Of a DNA stretch of 64,000 nt, positions 3,601 to 18,800 are shown piece by piece. Each line of letters begins with the position of its first letter. Position 1 is the first letter of the stretch. Position numbers and translations under genes: made by a program. The notes below the pieces were generated by a model. It was not told the origin of the DNA. It did not search any database and was given only the letters and a program-made list of their open reading frames with translations. Source of the DNA: Sphaerolaimus hirsutus (lineage: Eukaryota > Nematoda > Chromadorea > Monhysterida > Sphaerolaimidae); contig OZ038454.1 of assembly GCA_964036195.1 (NCBI GenBank), forward strand, positions 7,006,001 to 7,070,000. Direction: 5' to 3'.

Positions 3601-6600
3601 AAATTCGCTGAAAAAATGGCGAAAAAATTAGAAGGGCAGTCTCCAATAGAAGGGCGGGTAAAAAAAATGACGAAAAAATAGCACCCTTCTATTAGAAGAA
3701 ATACGGTACCTACATTTAAAAGGGGGCATTTTCACAAAACATCCATCTTGCGGCACCCTCCTGAAGCCCCCTCAAATGGCGGCCGCGCCATTGTGCCATT
3801 CCATCACTCACTAATTAAAGTGCAAACTAACTGTGCTGTTGGTGCTGGTGCTGGAATCCCATCTTTATCATCACTGCGAAATCCTCTTGCAATAGGTTTA
3901 TTGTGTCAGTGGATGCCATCATGTAATTGATTGTGGTTTGTTGTATTTCTTCAGTCATCTGCCGAGTAAAACGGTAAGCTAAGACAGCATTCAAACGTTT
4001 GTTTGTGATGTGATGACAAAAATATCGAGTTTTGAACAGCTTTTGGTCATGAAATATGGAAGTATGTCATGAAATTTGATTTGCGTGATGCCTAGATGTT
4101 GATAAGCTACATTACCCAATTAATGAGGCTGCAAATACCCCTTATTCACTCTGGCAACAAAAAATGTGATCTAATGTACATCATTACACCATCTATAAAA
4201 TTTGATGTTTGTCCCAGGTATTGAGGCCAATCAAATCATGTCGATAGAGTATGCACACAACAAATTATGAACAGCTAATTTCAGTAAGCCATAATGGCAT
4301 TCATGGCATGATGGCATGATGAATTAGGTAACCAATTTTTAGTTTACTGGCAGAAACCTCAAATGCCATTCAAAGTGGATTTATCAGTTGACCAACTGTC
4401 ACTGGTTGTAAACTAGTGTGCGCAGCACCAATATGCAACCTTTCACGGAATTATGACTACCTAGTCTAACCGGAATCATGGTGACCAGCTGCGCGGCTGC
4501 GGTGGCCAGACGCTGTGCCTTGGGCAGCTGAACGGCAGTTTTGAAGTCGCTGGGGCACAGCTGGTCTTTGCATCCGATCATTTCACATTCTTCCCGTTCT
4601 GGTGACTGAATGGCAAAAAACAAATAGGTACGTTGATTTGCTGTTTGTGAAACAGCTTATGAACTCATTTTTTGAATATTTCATCCTACTGTACCTATGT
4701 TATAGCGTGGTTCAGGTAGACACACAAAGTTTGGCATTTCTGTGAGCAGATGTAGTCCTGCGTCACTGACAGCTGCAGCATGACGTCTATCATTTTTCAA
4801 CTCATGATGCCATGAAGATTTTCTCTTCACAATTTAAAACGGAATTTCCCTGGCCAATTATTTCGTCACTATATTTCATCTCACTCATTCAGTGAACTGA
4901 AACAGTTCGTCACATATTTATATAATCCGAAATGAAACACACCCGAAACGACTCGAGTATGGAGTCGAGGGTGTGCACGTGCGGCAGCGTGCAGCGCGCG
5001 TCGCTCAGCGCTGGCTGCGTGGGGTCGGGCGGCACGACGCACAGCGGGGTCGTGTCGCTGTTGCCTGCGGGTCACATTTTTTGCTCATTTGGCAAAGCGT
5101 CAATTGTCATGCAAAGTGTCAGCCAAAGTGTCAATTGTCATGCAAAGTTCAGTAATACAGTTTTTTGTTTGTTTTGATAGACATTTCACCTGACATTTTG
5201 CAGTTGAATTTACCCTTTACAGTGCTCGGGACTACCACATGCATGGCTACACACAAGCACTAAGCACCAATCCCCGCCCACCTAGTTCCAGATCTGGCTG
5301 GGCGGGCGGGCGGGGGGTGCCCCTGCGCCTGTGCTTGTCCCTCTGCTCGATCATGCTGATGGTGGCGGACACCATCTGGTCCACGTCGAGCTGGTCGATG
5401 CGCTCCTGCGGCACCTCCCACGTGTGCCCCACCGCTTCCACCAGGTCGCTCACGCGCAGCCTTTGGGGGAAGTGGTTGACAAATGACAACTTGGGGGCAG
5501 TCCCGAACCCTGTAAAGTGTAAATTAAGTGTCAATTGTCATGTAAAATGTCATGCAAAGTGTCAATTGTCATGAGAAATGTAAAGTCAAGTGTCAATCGA
5601 CATGCAAAGATCAGTAATAAAAACTTTTCTTTTTGTTTTGATTAACACTTTACATGACATTTAAAACACTTTACATGGCTTGGGACTGCCACAAATATTG
5701 TACACAGTACAGCACTTCTAGTGGTTTTGAGTCACACAACCCAACACGACCGACTTTTTGCCGCCGAACCAGACTCGGACGGACTTTGCGTTGCGCAGGG
5801 CCTTGCCCAGGTTGTGCAGCTGGCGCATGCGCACCGTGCCCAGCTCGATGGCCACCGTGGACAGGGCCACGCCCACGCACACGTACGCCATCATCACCGG
5901 GTAGTAGGACGCGCTGAGGGGAGAGAGGTCTGTTATGGCTGTGGGGGGGGTGCTTTTTGTTGCTGCAGTGTTTATATCTGGGGACGCATACCCCCTGAAC
6001 CGCATGCTGTTATGAAGTAACACTTCACGATAACATCATTGTTAATAAAATTAATATTGTACCAAAAATCGTTTCTCGAATGAACGCAATGTATAAAAAA
6101 AATTCTTCTTTCTTGAATATTTGTCTTTTTTGTGACATTGTGCATCATTTTCCTGCCCGCGCTTTATCGAATAAGACATACCTATTACCTCGAATTATCC
6201 CCCCTTTGAATTAATTCCCCTGGAATTAACCCCCCTCAAAATGGGCTGGGGAAATAATAACCCCCCCCCCGTCGAAATACCCCCCGAAATGATGTACATC
6301 CTGTATGCAATGTACATAATGTATTTATTACAACTAATTTGCATTGCAGCTACACTTATACGCTCATTTGTGTACAGACGTACATCTATAGCCCCAATAT
6401 CACCTAATTTCTCATGTTTATTACCGTTTTTGGGTATGAGAAAGCGTACTACCATATTACCTCGAAATACCCCCATGGGGATGTATTATTTCACCAGCAA
6501 ATTTTGAGGGGGGGTTAATTCGAGGGGGAGGGGGTTATTCCAGGGGGGTCTATTATTTCGCCGGAAATTTTACGATTTCCCATACTCAGACATAGAGAAA

Positions 6601-9600
6601 TACAACATTGTCAGAGACGGATGGGTGTTTTTAGGCATATACAAGTGTATATACACATAAACCCTTCCCTAACGTCACTCAGTCATCGGTTTTGTGGTGT
6701 CATCAGTCATGTGTTCTGCATAATACAGTTCACACATTTGTGGTATTTGTTGTGTACATTCTGTTTACACTGTATTTGGGGGGTATGTCGAGGAGGGGGG
6801 TTTATTATTTCCCCAGCCCATTTTGAGGGGGGGGGGGGGGTGAACTCGAGTGGGGGTTAATTCAATAGGGGGAGGTTAATTCAAGGGGGGTTAATTCAAG
6901 GGGGGGGTTAATTCGAGGTAATACTGTATTTACTATGAATTTAACAAAAATTTCTGACGAAATAATAACCTCCCCTCGAAATCCCCCCCCCCCCTCGAAT
7001 TAACCCTCCCCCTAAAATTTTGCTAGCGGAATAATAAACCGCCATGGGGGTATTTCGAGGTAATACGGTAAGTAATTATGTATGCATACATTGCAGTCCG
7101 CCGAGCATAAAATATAAAATACGCTATCCTCTGTTCAACTTAGCATGGTACAACACGACACACTGACGCACCTGGTGGGAACAAAGTCGCGGAAGTCGAG
7201 TGTCAGTGCGCTGAAACTCCAGTAGATACCAGTTAGCATTGACAGAAATCGGAAATATTTTTGATTCAAGAAATCGTTTATGGGAGCTTGTATTCAAATA
7301 TTTTTCCAATTTGCAAAAGACTGGTCAAAAAGGTCCATCCCAGCTTAAAAGCAAACAATTGAAGCGTTGCTGGATATGTCCATGCTGAATCCAGTAACAA
7401 TCAGAGGCTTTGCACCAACACACAAGTGCACAGAACTATTTTTGGATTTTTTTTCCACTTTTGTCAGTATTTTGGCCAGGGAAAAAGAACCTACTGTAAG
7501 TAAAAATATGCTTTCGCAACCCTGCAAAAATAAAACTTTTCAAAAAATGATTCTACTCCGCTAGGATGCAAACCCAAACAAAACCCCAAAAACCAAATTC
7601 CGTCAGTGCTAAGCTAATTGCACCATTGAACACGCTGCCGCCATGTATGCTCTTGTAGGCGAGCGCGCCCAGGGCCACGTGCAAGCCGAACACGAGCACG
7701 AACATGGTGGCCGGCATCTCCTTGTTCGCGTCCTCCTCCTGCTCCTCCTCGTCGAGCTCCTCGTCGCTGACACTCTCCTCGGCCAGTAGAAACAATCGGG
7801 GGGGGGGGGGTTTGGGGTGTAGGGTGAATCAGAGCCTTTTGTTTTGCGTTTGCCCTCTTTTTGTGGTGTGAGCTGATTTTGGTGACATTCAAATTTGTGG
7901 CAGGGCTGAAATTAATTTGATGTTTTCCTTAAAAAGTCCCATAAACCTTTTCACTAAAATTTCAATCAAATTTTGACCAAAAATGTCAACTAATTCAACC
8001 AAATAATATGCCACCATCGATTATTTCTATGCCTGCACCTCCCTACTGCTTGTGTGTTTTGTGTTCCTTCCCAGCCATGTGCACACAGCTGAATGCAGTT
8101 TCAGCCATCTGTATTTTTCAAATTAAATCGAATTGCTTAGGTATATGGCTTTGTCCTTCGGTATGCTCAGGGTCAGGGGACAGTCCCGCACTCAGTGTGA
8201 AGTGTGAAGGTAAGTGAAAAATGTCATGTAAAACGTCAGTCAAAGTAAAGGAAAAAGGTTTATTACAGAAATTTTGACAATTTGCAACTGACAAATAACA
8301 ATTGAGACATTTGACATGGTATTTGACACTTGATTTTACACTTCACAGGGGTCCGAACTCGGCAACGATAAATACGCCTTATGGACAATTTATGTACTTA
8401 GGTAGGTAAAATTGACTTTTAGAAGTTGGTGCCACACATGGACTTAACACATGTCTTACTTTCTTCTTACTGCCCACAGTTATGAACAGTTTGCTGCATA
8501 CAGAATGACGTTATTGACTTGCTTGAGATTTTTTGAGTCGTCACAATTGTGCCAAAACTTTGAAAAAACATAGAAAAAAATATGCGGCACCAATTCCAGG
8601 TGGCTTTTGTTAATGTTAAGAGCATTGCCGACGCAGGATGTCAGCCCCTAATAGTGATGAGCCCAGCCGCCTCTGTAGTCTAGTGGTTAGGGCACTCGTG
8701 TTCTATACGAGAGGTGCGGGTTCGATTCCCGCCTGAGGCAAGTGCAATTTTGCACTCTTTCTTAAACTTAACCCCAGCTCCACGCAACCGACCTGCAGGC
8801 GCGCTCCATGTGCGTGTGCGCCAGGATGACCAGCTGGCGGATGTACTGGCCCAAGTTGGCCAGCACGACCATGGTCAGCGGGATGCCGCACATGACGAAC
8901 AGCACGTAGAACAGCTTGCCCGCGTCCGTGGTCACGTTCAGCGCCCCGTAGCCTGAGGAAGGCGCAGAGTATAATTTGACTATTGTTTGGGTTTCTTCTT
9001 TGCCGTCATTGAACGTTGATTTCGGTAGTTGAACTGCTGTCTCTGCATTGCGTGGCACATGTCCAATAATTTTACGCTTTCATCTTTTTTGGGCAGTTAC
9101 CGTCATTCCTCGAAATACATCCAGGGTTTTTCAGAGTGTAAATTTTGAGGGGTGTTACCAGAGGGAGGGGTGTTCCAAGGGGGTGGTTGTTTTGCTGATT
9201 TTGAGGGGGGGGGGGGGGGGGTATTGCAAGGAAATACGGTTTATATGTTTTGCTATTGAAGACTTCAAACTGCATGCACACTGCCACGCAAATTGCAATA
9301 ACTTATGACTATTAGGTAACTGCCTACCACAGGCCATAAATGAAAGTTTTGAACGCTAGTCAATTTAGGACAGGGAATGTAGATTTGCTAGTTTACAAAA
9401 CAGACAACGTTTCCAAGATCATAGGTAATTAAATTCTGCAGAAAAAACTTTCCAGTTTCCTCTAGACAGACAAAAATCTATTGCACGCTGACACACCGAT
9501 GGTCGTGCAGGAGGCAAAAGCGTAGAGCCACGACTTGGCCAGCGTCCAACTGGGCGGGTTGACCAATGGGCGGACGCACCGCCGCACCACCTCGCCGCCC

Positions 9601-10189
9601 ACCGACTCCGCCCACCCTGCGACCAGCGACGCAAGCGCTACCAGCGGCAGTTACTGTTGTTTTTCAGGGGACACTCCCAGACCCTGTAAAAAGCCCTGTA
9701 AAATGTCAAATGTCCTCCATGGAAAATGCCCTGCAAAATGGCAAACGTACATTTGCCATTTTCCATGACTTTTGACACTTTGCATGACATTTGACATTTC
9801 ACAGGGCTTTTTACAGTTTCTGTTATTTGAAAAACTTCGAAACAAAAAAAATATGATTGCATAAAATGTAGTTATTTTACAGCGGAGGGCCTGCAATAGC
9901 CATGATTTAAATATTTTTTCAAAAATTTTTACCATCATAGGGCACAAAAATCTGCGCAGCAGCGTCGCACATCAGTACATCACGCACCCCTGTGGAAGCG
10001 CCGCGCGCGCACCACCGTCTGGACGCACAGCGCCGTCTGGTTGAGTGTAAGCTGGTGCGCCTGGCTCTGCTCCCGCTGCTCGACCAGCTTGAGCACGCTG
10101 CCGCCGAGCAGGGCGTACAGCGTGACGCACAGCACCAGCAGCGTGTTGACCACCAGCGGCTCGCGGCACAGCTGCCGCACGCTGCGCAT
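615..10189 (-). CDS. Two-pore-domain (K2P/TWK) potassium channel, about 12 exons
   Basis: Membrane channel expected to carry potassium leak current. Exons, 5' to 3': 9988-10189, 9497-9616, 8793-8952, 7624-7766, 7172-7210, 5755-5913, 5282-5460, 4943-5064, 4461-4527, 1993-2123, 1051-1180, 615-700. In order they encode M1 (VLCVTLYALLGG), a cap with an NQT glycosylation site, the first pore with filter TTIGYG, M2 (FYVLFVMCGIPLT), an acidic M2-M3 loop, M3 (MPATMFVLVFGLHVALGAL), the second pore, M4 (YYPVMMAYVCVGVALSTVAI) and a long low-complexity cytoplasmic tail ending SSAVAKATIK. The intron splitting the first Gly of GYG in phase 1 is a known K2P hallmark. The second pore reads TLDFRDFVPT instead of TTxGFGDFVP, and the junction into it (7624 to 7210) fails phase, so that boundary is unresolved. 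The alternative exon-2 start is 9637. Start ATG 10189 is the first Met before M1. The channel family is sure; the tail exons at 4461-4527 and 1051-1180 are less certain. Confidence 0.82.
701..1053 (-). mobile_element. Inverted-repeat MITE coinciding with the last K2P intron
   Basis: On the plus strand the element begins CTGGGGCAGTCCCAGACC and ends GAGACTGGCACCAG, which are imperfect inverted repeats. On the minus strand its ends supply GTGCCA as 5' splice site and GCCCCAG as 3' splice site. The intron 1050-701 is therefore the element minus three bases. No target duplication is visible. Confidence 0.6.
2209..3112. mobile_element. hAT-like MITE filled with GGCGCC palindromes
   Basis: Termini are TAGTGATGG and CCATCACTA, flanked by the exact 8-bp duplication AATGTAAA (2201-2208 and 3113-3120). 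The blocks 2218-2430 and 2870-3105 are tandem variants of CTTGGCGCCTGGCGCC. The non-repetitive middle (about 2431-2869) looks like a later insertion. Long open frames here in every register come from the repeat and are not genes. Confidence 0.85.
3113..4440. repeat. K2P intron with 'CAATAGAAGGGCG' repeats
   Basis: Positions 3290-3715 carry several copies of the word CAATAGAAGGGCG between CCGTATTTCTTCC and AGAAGAAATACGGTA termini. A related copy lies at 1795-1975. The remainder is AT-rich intron with no exon I can support. Confidence 0.5.
6187..7078. repeat. Cluster of TACCGTATTACCTCGAA repeats
   Basis: Runs of CCCCTCGAAATA / GGGGTTAATTCGAGG bounded by TTACCTCGAATTA and GAGGTAATACGGTA. At least two interleaved copies fill this K2P intron. 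The same family recurs at 180-295, 9110-9240, 13844-14164, 15500-15857, 30000-30180, 41504-42030 and 61340-61700. Confidence 0.6.
8669..8740 (+). tRNA. tRNA-Arg (anticodon TCT) or tRNA-derived SINE head
   Basis: This 72-bp stretch folds as a tRNA: acceptor GCCTCTG with CTGAGGC (one mismatch), a D arm with AGTGGTTAGG, anticodon stem CTCGT/ACGAG around loop GTTCTAT (anticodon TCT), and T arm GCGGG-TTCGATT-CCCGC. A-box and B-box promoter words are present. It lies inside a K2P intron, antisense to it. The D arm resembles Glu/Asp tRNAs more than usual Arg tRNAs, so a SINE-derived copy is possible. Confidence 0.5.
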
Positions 10190-15869: not shown

Positions 15870-18800
15870 TCACCAGGCGGAGAAATCAGTCAACTTAGCG
15901 GCGGGCCTGGCCGCGGCTCTGTTAACCTTCTTCTGCGGCGCGGCACTCTCTGCGGCGGCGGCGACCAGCGCGTCAGTGGACGCGGGCGGCGGGGGCAGGC
16001 CGCGCTGCAGGTTGCTGGCGCCCATGGCCGCCCCCGACCGCTTAATGTACTTGCCCACGCCGGACCTGCCGGTGGTGTGGTCAATGAAGACTGTGCTGCA
16101 CAGTTGCCACACAATGGCCTTATACACGCTAGTTTACCACGACAAAGTTTCGAAAACTCAAGTTGTTAACGCATTTGAGTTAACGGGAATGAGGTGTCTG
16201 TCAACTAAAGTTGATGGAGATTAAACAGGACTCGTTCTGGTAAACTCCAACGTGTTCAAACCGTCGAAACTTGTGATAATTCGGTAGTATACTAGTGTAG
16301 TGAGACTTTTGATCAAGACATGCAAATCTCTAACTGGAACGTGCCTTTGTACAGCGGGCTGCGCAGGGCTGGGGTCGCTGCCCTCGTTGGCGCGCCCTCC
16401 GCCGCCCGCCGCGCCAGCCGCCGCCTCGTCCGCTTTCCTCTTCCTGCACGCGCACGCCACTTTCAAATCTTTCACAGCAGAATTGCTCAAGTTTACATGG
16501 TGTCAATCCCAGACCCCGTAAAGTGTAAAGTAAACTGAAAAAAAGTGTAAAATGTCATGCAAAATGACAAATGTAAAGTGTCAAATGTCATGTACAGTGG
16601 CATGCTATGTGTCAATTGTCATGACAAATGTTGTGTCAATTGTCATGCAAAATTCAGTAATAAAATCTTTTATTTTAGTTGACATTTTACATGACATTTG
16701 ACACTTTATTTTACAGCTCAGTGTTTGGGAGCGTCCCATGGCGACACAGCCGCATCACTATCCCGCCCGCACCAACCTCAGCTTGACCCTATCCGCCTCC
16801 AACTGCTGCTCCGCCTGCTCGAAGGGGTCGACGAAGACCTGGGTGGCCATGACGAGCACCTGCTGCAGGGGGCGGTCGTCGTCGTCCACGGGCAGCCGCT
16901 CCACCGCCGTCAACGTCTCCATGCCGCCAACCAGCCGGCCGAAGATCGTGTGCTTCCGGTCCAGGTGAGTGCACTGGCGGAGAGTGATGAAACTGCGCGC
17001 GTTGGGGAGGGAGGTTTGGAGAGGGGTTCACAATCTGCGTTAAATAAAATGGTAAATATCAAATAGATTTAAATTTATACAATTGAAGCGTTGATTGGGG
17101 CATTTTTTTCTATAAAAAGCTATTCTAAAAAAAACTGTGACATTAATTACAAAAAATCAATTTTTTTAATGGATTTTTTTAAATCGAGACTTAAGAAAAT
17201 GTTTTTTTTTCCAACCCTACATAGCCAGCCCAAGTCAAATCGCAACAGTGAAATCGACTCACAACTGGCTGGTGTTGGTGGCGGTGCCGCTGTTGGCCAT
17301 GCTCAGCACGCCCCTGGAGCTGTGCGACAGCTGCGGCGCGAACTCGTCGGCGAAGGCCGCCCCGAAGGCAGACTCGCCCCCCGTGCCCGTGCCCGTGGGG
17401 TCGCCGCCCTGGATCTGCGATAGAAGGGGGACCGGTGCTGATTGAATCAACGGACAAACGCGGTGTACAGTAGCACGCCGGCACTGACTATAGCGTTCCG
17501 AAAATAATAGATTTCAGAAAATAATAAAATAGCAGAAAATCTCTGAAAATAAAACAAGATTTGTTTTTACTGGAAAACCGTGGAGAACATATAAATAAAT
17601 ATAAACTATATATATATTTTTATTTTCTATAATAAAATATGATAAAATCTCTGTCGAAACAAAGAGAATATGTAATAAATAAATATGAGATTCTTTATAT
17701 TTTTTATATTTGAAAAATATAAATCCCGGAAAGTTCTAGAACGCCCAGCGACCATGAAGTGCTTGATGAGTCTGTGGAAGGTGGTGTTGTTGTAGTAGCC
17801 CCTGTTGCACAGCTGGATGAAGTTGTCGCAGGCCATGGGCGCCAGGTCGCAGTGCAGCTCCAGGTTCAGCGGCCCGAAGTTGGTCACCATGCGCACGTAG
17901 CCCTTCTTCTTCACTCGCTCGTACCTGCGTCGTAACATGCTTGCAGCGCTGACAAACAGCTCACACACACCAGTTGCAGTTAACATCGCAAATGAATGTC
18001 AACTGAATGGCACGATTTTTTTGAAGCTCACACTTGACAGAAACAATGAAAGTTAAGTGTAGCGATATGAAATTGACGATGCTCTATAACATGGGAAGTT
18101 GTGAAATCACATAATTTACCAAAATTTAGTTGACACGAAGTTTGATGTCAGCTAGTGTGTGTTTACAAATCAACAGGCAGTTGAAAAAAATGCGCTGTGG
18201 TGCTTCGTTGACAGATTTATAGACCCGAAAATCAAGCAAAACGTGTTATGTGCGAGCATGCAGCCCAGAATTTTCCCATTATTCCCATTCCCAAAAAAAA
18301 TTATGTAATCACAGGAGGCCGAAATTTTTCTTCAGCCCACCCCAACGCCCAAAACGCGTTCACACGCAAAAAGGACCGACTTNNNNNNNNNNNNNNNNNN
18401 NNNNNNNNNNNNNNNNNNNNNNNNNNNNNNNNNNNNNNNNNNNNNNNNNNNNNNNNNNNNNNNNNNNNNNNNNNNNNNNNNNNNNNNNNNNNNNNNNNNN
18501 NNNNNNNNNNNNNNNNNNNNNNNNNNNNNNNNNNNNNNNNNNNNNNNNNNNNNNNNNNNNNNNNNNNNNNNNNNNNNNNNNNTGGGCAAAAATTTTAGGG
18601 GGGGGGCTGAGCCCCCCCCCGTTCGCCGGCCCCCGTAAACAAGCAGCCCCCCCCGCTCCAAAATCCTGGATACGTCCCTGATCACAGGATGCCGAAATTT
18701 GTGCGAATTTTTCAAAAATTTCCTTCAGCCCCAACGCCCAACGCCCAAAAACGCGTTCACGACGCAAAAAGGGTTCAGTGTACTTATTATTCTACAGTAA

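Follow-up and report, generated by a model that had tools for sequence, protein, structure and literature searches.

The pore of K2P channels is lined by four P loops contributed by two chains (PMC5376743, excerpt), and an alignment of 66 channels from vertebrates, insects, and nematodes is described as showing high conservation of both selectivity filters, SF1 and SF2 (PMC6377628, section 6, excerpt). The window analysed here, a stretch of 64 kb (C6:7006001-7070000), holds on its minus strand a K2P-like gene that keeps an ordinary first pore loop (P1) and has lost both filter glycines from the second (P2), which raises the question of whether the gene is damaged, misassembled, or unusually spliced, or whether it encodes a maintained channel variant with a second filter of another kind. 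A clade carrying Asp at the first P2 glycine would be a natural test of the required role of the second pore loop, and may show whether a K2P dimer trades K+ selectivity for other permeation or regulation, and which P2 residues are then constrained. A search of titles and abstract openings in the open-licence literature yielded no account of such a clade among the matches listed, which suggests, though weakly, that it has yet to be described.

Organization of the window gene

The gene could be modelled as the following set of minus-strand exons, in the order of transcription:

9988..10189, minus strand: exon 1, M1 (NTLLVLCVTLYALLGGSVLKLVEQRE); donor gtgcgt, phase 1
9497..9616, minus strand: exon 2, P1 pore helix up to TTI-G, where the exon ends; Ion_trans_2 match
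8793..8952, minus strand: exon 3, remainder of P1 (rest of the split G, then YG) and M2 with CGIPLT
7624..7766, minus strand: exon 4, acidic linker and M3, ending in GGSVFN-G, phase 1; donor gtgcaa
7230..7623, minus strand: insert of 394 bp within the P2 Gly codon, in the window gene only
7172..7229, minus strand: P2 exon as defined by homology, GT + IYWSFSALTLDFRDFVPT + AG
5755..5913, minus strand: exon 6, M4 (YYPVMMAYVCVGVALSTVAIELG...WFGGK)
5283..5460, minus strand: exon 7, cytoplasmic C-terminal stretch (LRVSDLVEAVGHTWEV...); more exons may follow

Exons 1-6 follow the order M1-P1-M2-M3-P2-M4 (by homology, with TM segments taken from alignment), while the junction between exons 6 and 7 was inferred with phase as its sole basis. 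The likeness to K2P channels (KCNK/TWK, PF07885) extends to P1, which, as the earlier note had read, keeps TTIGYG, and to M2, whose CGIPLT in exon 3 contains the GIP motif described for K2Ps (PMC6377628, section 6, excerpt). The P1 intron lies inside the first filter Gly codon, in phase 1, a position that it shares with many paralogues of the genome. The protein, a chain joined by hand across the 394-bp insert, matches PDB chains of KCNK2, 3, 9, 10, 4, 6, 13, 5, and 1, the best match being KCNK2/TREK-1 (5.5e-14). The P1 half (exons 2 and 3) matches Ion_trans_2 (PF07885) with 51 bits, and the P2 half, at 19.5 bits, falls short of the Pfam cut-off (22.5).

The difference from other K2Ps lies in P2, where the window gene has TLDFRD, one residue shorter, in place of the K+-type filter T-x-G-F/L-G-D. 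Minus-strand positions 7227-7172 do read IYWSFSALTLDFRDFVPT, as first reported; both filter glycines are replaced, by Asp (GAC) and Arg (CGC), with one residue fewer than in TTxGFGD, and a phmmer alignment with the P2 of TREK-1 likewise leaves one residue absent and places D and R where TREK-1 has the two glycines. ACCAG is followed by a phase-2 donor that matches the M4 exon (5913) in phase, again in agreement with the original reading. No replacement for this exon emerged: a pattern search of the 64 kb window for an unsplit TTxGFG-type K2P filter returned only an unrelated TSGGLG, none of the 2054 one-internal-exon GT/GC-AG paths from donors 7660-7550 was canonical (best 9.6 bits, scored with a small P2 profile), and half-filter searches for an alternative P2 exon gave weak, chance-like pieces only.

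Paralogues with Asp in the second filter

The genome (348 Mb, 762 contigs) was searched at the protein level, yielding 68 matches that included five main exons of the window gene and its P2 exon; together with the PDB chains, it constitutes the eukaryotic sequence covered here. The query included the window's own P2, and it is from this query that the three closest paralogues came. In all three, M3 and P2 lie in one uninterrupted exon that reads NG[IV]YHSFSALTLDF[RK][DN]FVP. Eight further loci also carry Asp on the first P2 glycine, bringing the number, with the window gene, to at least 12:

L043, C6:515 kb: M3-P2 single exon GGTTLNGIYHSFSALTLDFRNFVP
L044, C6:4.88 Mb: M3-P2 single exon GGSTLNGVYHSFSALTLDFKDFVP
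L045, C7:13.6 Mb: M3-P2 single exon GGSTLNGIYHSFSALTLDFRDFVP
L046: P2 filter TCDFEDV
L047: P2 filter TTDFLGM
L048: P2 filter TSDLGNV
L050: P2 filter TSDMNDI
L072: P2 filter TTDIVNI
L073 and L074: P2 filter TTDIGSA
L049, C3:1814301-1816300: P2 filter AVDFSAI; P2 of normal length

Six of the eight further loci (L047, L048, L050, L072-L074) were picked mainly through P1 or M4 matches, and their P2 was read afterwards; L046 and L049 gave weak matches over the M3-P2 stretch as well. Decay of P2 had been favoured at first, on the basis of a GC3 drop in the P2 codons and M3 tail, a donor lacking the +5 G, and the broken filter, and was dropped once the paralogues were found. The same or a similar motif recurs far from the window and on contigs other than its own, which leaves gene decay, one of the explanations first proposed, without support as the cause of DFR. 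Since at least ten sister genes of the same genome carry the Asp change, the window gene is best understood as a maintained channel variant rather than as the product of gene damage or of misread sequence, and the suggestion of a non-conducting or altered second pore gains support from an altered P2 that is conserved and common to a clade of paralogues.

Within this clade, the second glycine position is varied (R, K, E, L, G, N, V), the P2 pore helix aligns one residue short, and four columns are invariant in an alignment of 11 members (M3 Gly, pore-helix Phe, filter Thr, and the Asp itself). The clade profile retrieved five sequences from the PDB chains up to E 1, all of them K+ channels and all with E of at least 0.36 (TOK, TASK2, KCNK6); profile A1 places the D on the first G of the TASK2 P2, but with E 0.5.

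Of the other K2P-like loci, 36 had a P2 that could be read wholly or partly, and every one of these retains the first P2 glycine (34/34, plus L081 and L082). These canonical loci stem mainly from a Pfam search with 129 matches, a source biased towards canonical filters, and P2 was read at part of them. Within the 34, L071 shows only the first glycine, an intron interrupts L032 and L035 with both parts found, and L027/L028, L052/L053, and L054-L057 are near-copies. Outside the P2 count stand loci with P1 alone read (L002, L003, L004, L008, L016, L025, L031), other channel types as judged by eye (L009, L012, L019, L021-L024, L026, L060, L066-L068), and duplicates of counted loci (L017, L020, L033, L034, L036-L038, L062). 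Paralogues with a canonical P2 in the same genome include L034, L033, and L058.

Further K2P exons lie on the plus strand at C6:7101538-7115299, about 31-45 kb past the window end, with L031 known by its P1 and L032 by a canonical P2 split within the first glycine. At C13:23.94-23.99 Mb, about 46 kb hold at least four K2P P2 exons (L054-L057) that are nearly identical and read GLG.

Phylogeny of the M3-P2-M4 region

A tree of M3-P2-M4 was built with the filter columns removed from 26 rows (the 12 Asp loci and 14 hand-chosen canonical ones), each checked against the DNA; eight rows cover less than half of the columns. Eleven Asp loci, including the window gene, form one clade (support 97/91), which had also been recovered at 100/96 in a first version of the tree where L072 lacked M4 and the L042 row was joined. 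The window gene, L043, L044, and L045 form an inner clade (98/98). The remaining Asp locus, L049, falls outside and groups with the canonical L033 (88/79), the pair being drawn beside the Asp clade (83/74). Because of this pairing, the Asp of L049 is possibly a second, independent Gly-to-Asp change; alternatively, Asp may have arisen once, with L033 having reverted.

Constraint on the second pore loop

Among the window gene, L043, L044, and L045, the P2 core is the most conserved part compared, with 15 of 19 positions invariant, against 25/42 in P1-M2 (where the L044 row is L051, located 20 kb away and treated as one gene with it), 21/49 in M4, and 6/25 in M3. The excess is significant for P2 core against M3 (Fisher, p 0.0006) and against M4 (p 0.014). 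TM3 is weakly conserved in K2Ps (PMC6377628, section 6, excerpt), so that M4 offers the fairer comparison. Among L043-L045, dN is 0.075-0.076 in P2, 0.37-0.49 in M3, and 0.21-0.31 in M4; in pairs that involve the window gene, dN in P2 (0.19-0.26) is below that in M3 (0.41-0.55) and barely below that in M4 (0.22-0.35), dS being saturated or very high for most pairs compared. We take this pattern to reflect purifying selection that maintains the non-canonical filter, rather than decay.

Third positions had seemed to point the other way, as 5 of 17 window P2 codons end in A or T, against 17 of 300 (p 0.0036). Several of the codons in question (AGT, GCA, TTT, GTT) are however common to the paralogues, and the dip in the window gene is therefore no evidence of decay. 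Many P2 codons of the closest paralogues end in A or T, in contrast to the GC-rich third positions of the window gene outside P2, and the composition of this gene or region is unusual.

Possible consequences for the pore

The explanation that we favour, as somewhat the most probable judging from sequence, places the window gene in a maintained K2P-like clade whose second filter is not TxGFGD, and whose members have changed selectivity or gating or act as subunits that alter a partner. P2 in these genes carries a fixed Asp on the first filter glycine, varies at the second, and has a pore helix that aligns with one residue fewer; P1 in the window gene is still GYG. The protein would be full length and would dimerize as other K2Ps do, giving a dimer pore with a pair each of TIGYG and TxDFx loops, in which a fourfold K+ filter should not form. 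A P2 loop with Asp at the first position, and usually a residue other than glycine at the second, should not offer the carbonyl ladder of a K+ filter, and it is for this reason that changed selectivity or gating (a cation leak, for example), or a regulatory subunit that modifies its partner, would be expected.

A changed P2 need not silence a K2P, since exchanging one residue of the second P loop in TREK-1 (I267T) makes the channel leak Na+ (PMC5376743, excerpt). The clade differs from TREK-1 I267T and from UNC-58 in that its P2 filter is replaced. UNC-58 is a C. elegans K2P in which a pore change brings Na+ permeability, and in both cases only one residue is substituted and the glycines of P2 are retained. 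Na+ and Ca2+ channel filters (TLESW, TLDDW) have an acidic residue right after T-x in the P loop, a likeness to the T-x-D of the clade that is suggestive only. A more specific version, in which a hybrid pore of two GYG and two Asp loops would pass, or be gated by, Na+ or Ca2+ instead of acting as a K+ leak, at least 11 such genes having radiated in one animal, is conceivable but doubtful.

The alternative that survives best, and which is held only tentatively, is that the clade consists of non-conducting K2P-like subunits, located in the membrane or ER, which pair with, trap, or gate conducting K2Ps. Asp together with Arg or Lys in a filter is expected to abolish K+ coordination. P1 is GYG at eight of the 12 Asp loci as read (window, L043, L045/L078, L046, L048, L049, L073/L076, L074/L077), and at the other four the second P1 glycine is lost as well (GYS in L047, GYT in L050, GFA in L072/L075, and GYN in L051, which is probably the P1 of L044), leaving room for non-conducting members of the clade; loss of this glycine fits new selectivity as well as loss of conduction. 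Silent K2Ps do exist, among them TASK5 and the mammalian KCNK7, a natural K2P without measurable current (PMC5428834, excerpt). KCNK7 is, however, a single vertebrate gene, in contrast to the present multigene clade with Asp in place of the first glycine. One of its filters reads GLE, with the first glycine intact. What speaks against a silent clade is that one would not expect a pore kept for folding alone to show the strongest conservation in the protein, as it does among the four closest genes.

The 394-bp insert and the fate of the window copy

The window gene differs from its three closest paralogues by the insert, which interrupts the P2 Gly codon (AATG, then 394 bp, then GTATC) with no further length change there; the other eight Asp loci are also uninterrupted at this site. 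Near its two ends lie the arms of an imperfect inverted repeat:

7593..7612: inverted-repeat arm, 20 nt, imperfect (80%), near one end of the insert
7233..7252: inverted-repeat arm, 20 nt, imperfect (80%), near the opposite end

A MITE-like DNA transposon would have terminal inverted repeats, a target-site duplication, and many copies. TGGT flanks the insert on both sides, as judged by eye. A genome search that skipped simple repeats and very common words found the insert in one place only, and a tandem duplication of the P2 exon within it was rejected, the match being 8 bases long (p 0.095). As the arms are only 80% complementary and no recognisable copy exists elsewhere, the insert is not obviously young.

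Its removal by splicing would be unusual, and the earlier note's suggestion of odd splicing may hold, relating to a gene-specific insert rather than to the origin of DFR. A U2 intron would have GT...AG ends and leave the frame intact. Exact excision would use ends GT...TG and join AATG to GTATCTAC, with an AG 19 nt further on. That AG, at 7212-7211, lies inside the homology-defined P2 exon; its use would keep 7172-7210 only, and joining it directly to the phase-1 M3 exon (end 7624) leads out of phase, as had been noted, 7210 not being among the frame-keeping single acceptors. The further claim that no AG restores phase did not hold: from the M3 donor, GTGCAA, in which the G commonly found at +5 is missing, there is one single AG acceptor, just ahead of 7286, that keeps IYWSF in an open frame and adds 19 residues in front of GIYWSF. 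Other frame-keeping paths from this donor comprise five P2-skipping acceptors and fifteen microexon combinations, and some later donors in the exon 4 read-through reach 7286 in phase with more added residues.

The 7286 acceptor is weak (pyrimidine fraction 0.37, A at -3) against the homologous P1-intron acceptors of the genome, drawn from an automatic list of 23 of which five were judged false or unspliced by eye; the contexts of the TG at 7230 and the AG at 7211 have a pyrimidine fraction of 0.58 and C at -3. An A at -3 is also found at L014 and L076 among the remaining 18 acceptors, and 7286 is kept as a possible site for that reason. In human genes, TG-AG tandem acceptors are described up to 28 nt apart, with TG acceptors only as alternatives near an AG and never as sole acceptors (PMC2374985, excerpt). 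The arrangement hints, weakly, that the insert is excised as an intron peculiar to this gene, the simplest route being GT...TG ends next to the AG that follows after 19 nt.

These features also bear on the possibility that the window copy alone is dead, its P2 exon broken by the insert, making it a young pseudogene of a working clade. An insert with inverted-repeat arms that is missing from the paralogues, whose exact excision by any AG is impossible and whose nearby AG at 7211 loses the frame, would be in keeping with such a history, as would the drop in third-position GC in the P2 codons. The remaining six modelled exons, however, contain neither stop nor frameshift, and the exons other than P2 have GC at third positions of 0.90-1.00, which speaks for a gene that is still in use. 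With the single-copy insert and its diverged arms giving no clear sign of youth, and the GC3 dip discounted by the codons shared with paralogues, death of the window copy appears rather unlikely, but it is the main alternative to excision of the insert as an intron.

Much less probable is restoration of the filter by A-to-I RNA editing, through GAY to GGY at the first position and AGR, AAR, GAR, AGY, or AAY to GGN at the second. A single change would turn each Asp codon into Gly, which holds for any Asp, and at the second position Gly is already present at 3 of 12 loci and 6 of the 9 others are convertible (AGG, AAG, AGA, GAA, AGC, AAT). The codons CGC of the window, CTG of L047, and GTT of L072 cannot, however, be converted to Gly, and no inverted complement of the P2 exon rose above 100 random segments at any of 11 loci (11/11, L049 left out). 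Finally, an assembly or sequencing error at 7150-7250, which had also been put forward as the cause of DFR, is negligible, as no point in its favour was found there and three further loci, each read on its own, show the same motif, these loci and the window lying on contigs of about 29-30 Mb.

Other features of the window

A tRNA-Arg(TCT) is called on the plus strand at 8669-8740, opposite to the K2P gene and inside the intron that separates its exons 3 and 4. Positions 18383-18582 consist of 200 N, which probably mark a scaffold gap. At 16758-17998, on the minus strand, lie exons resembling a cyclophilin-type peptidyl-prolyl isomerase, which we take to be PPIL2-like.
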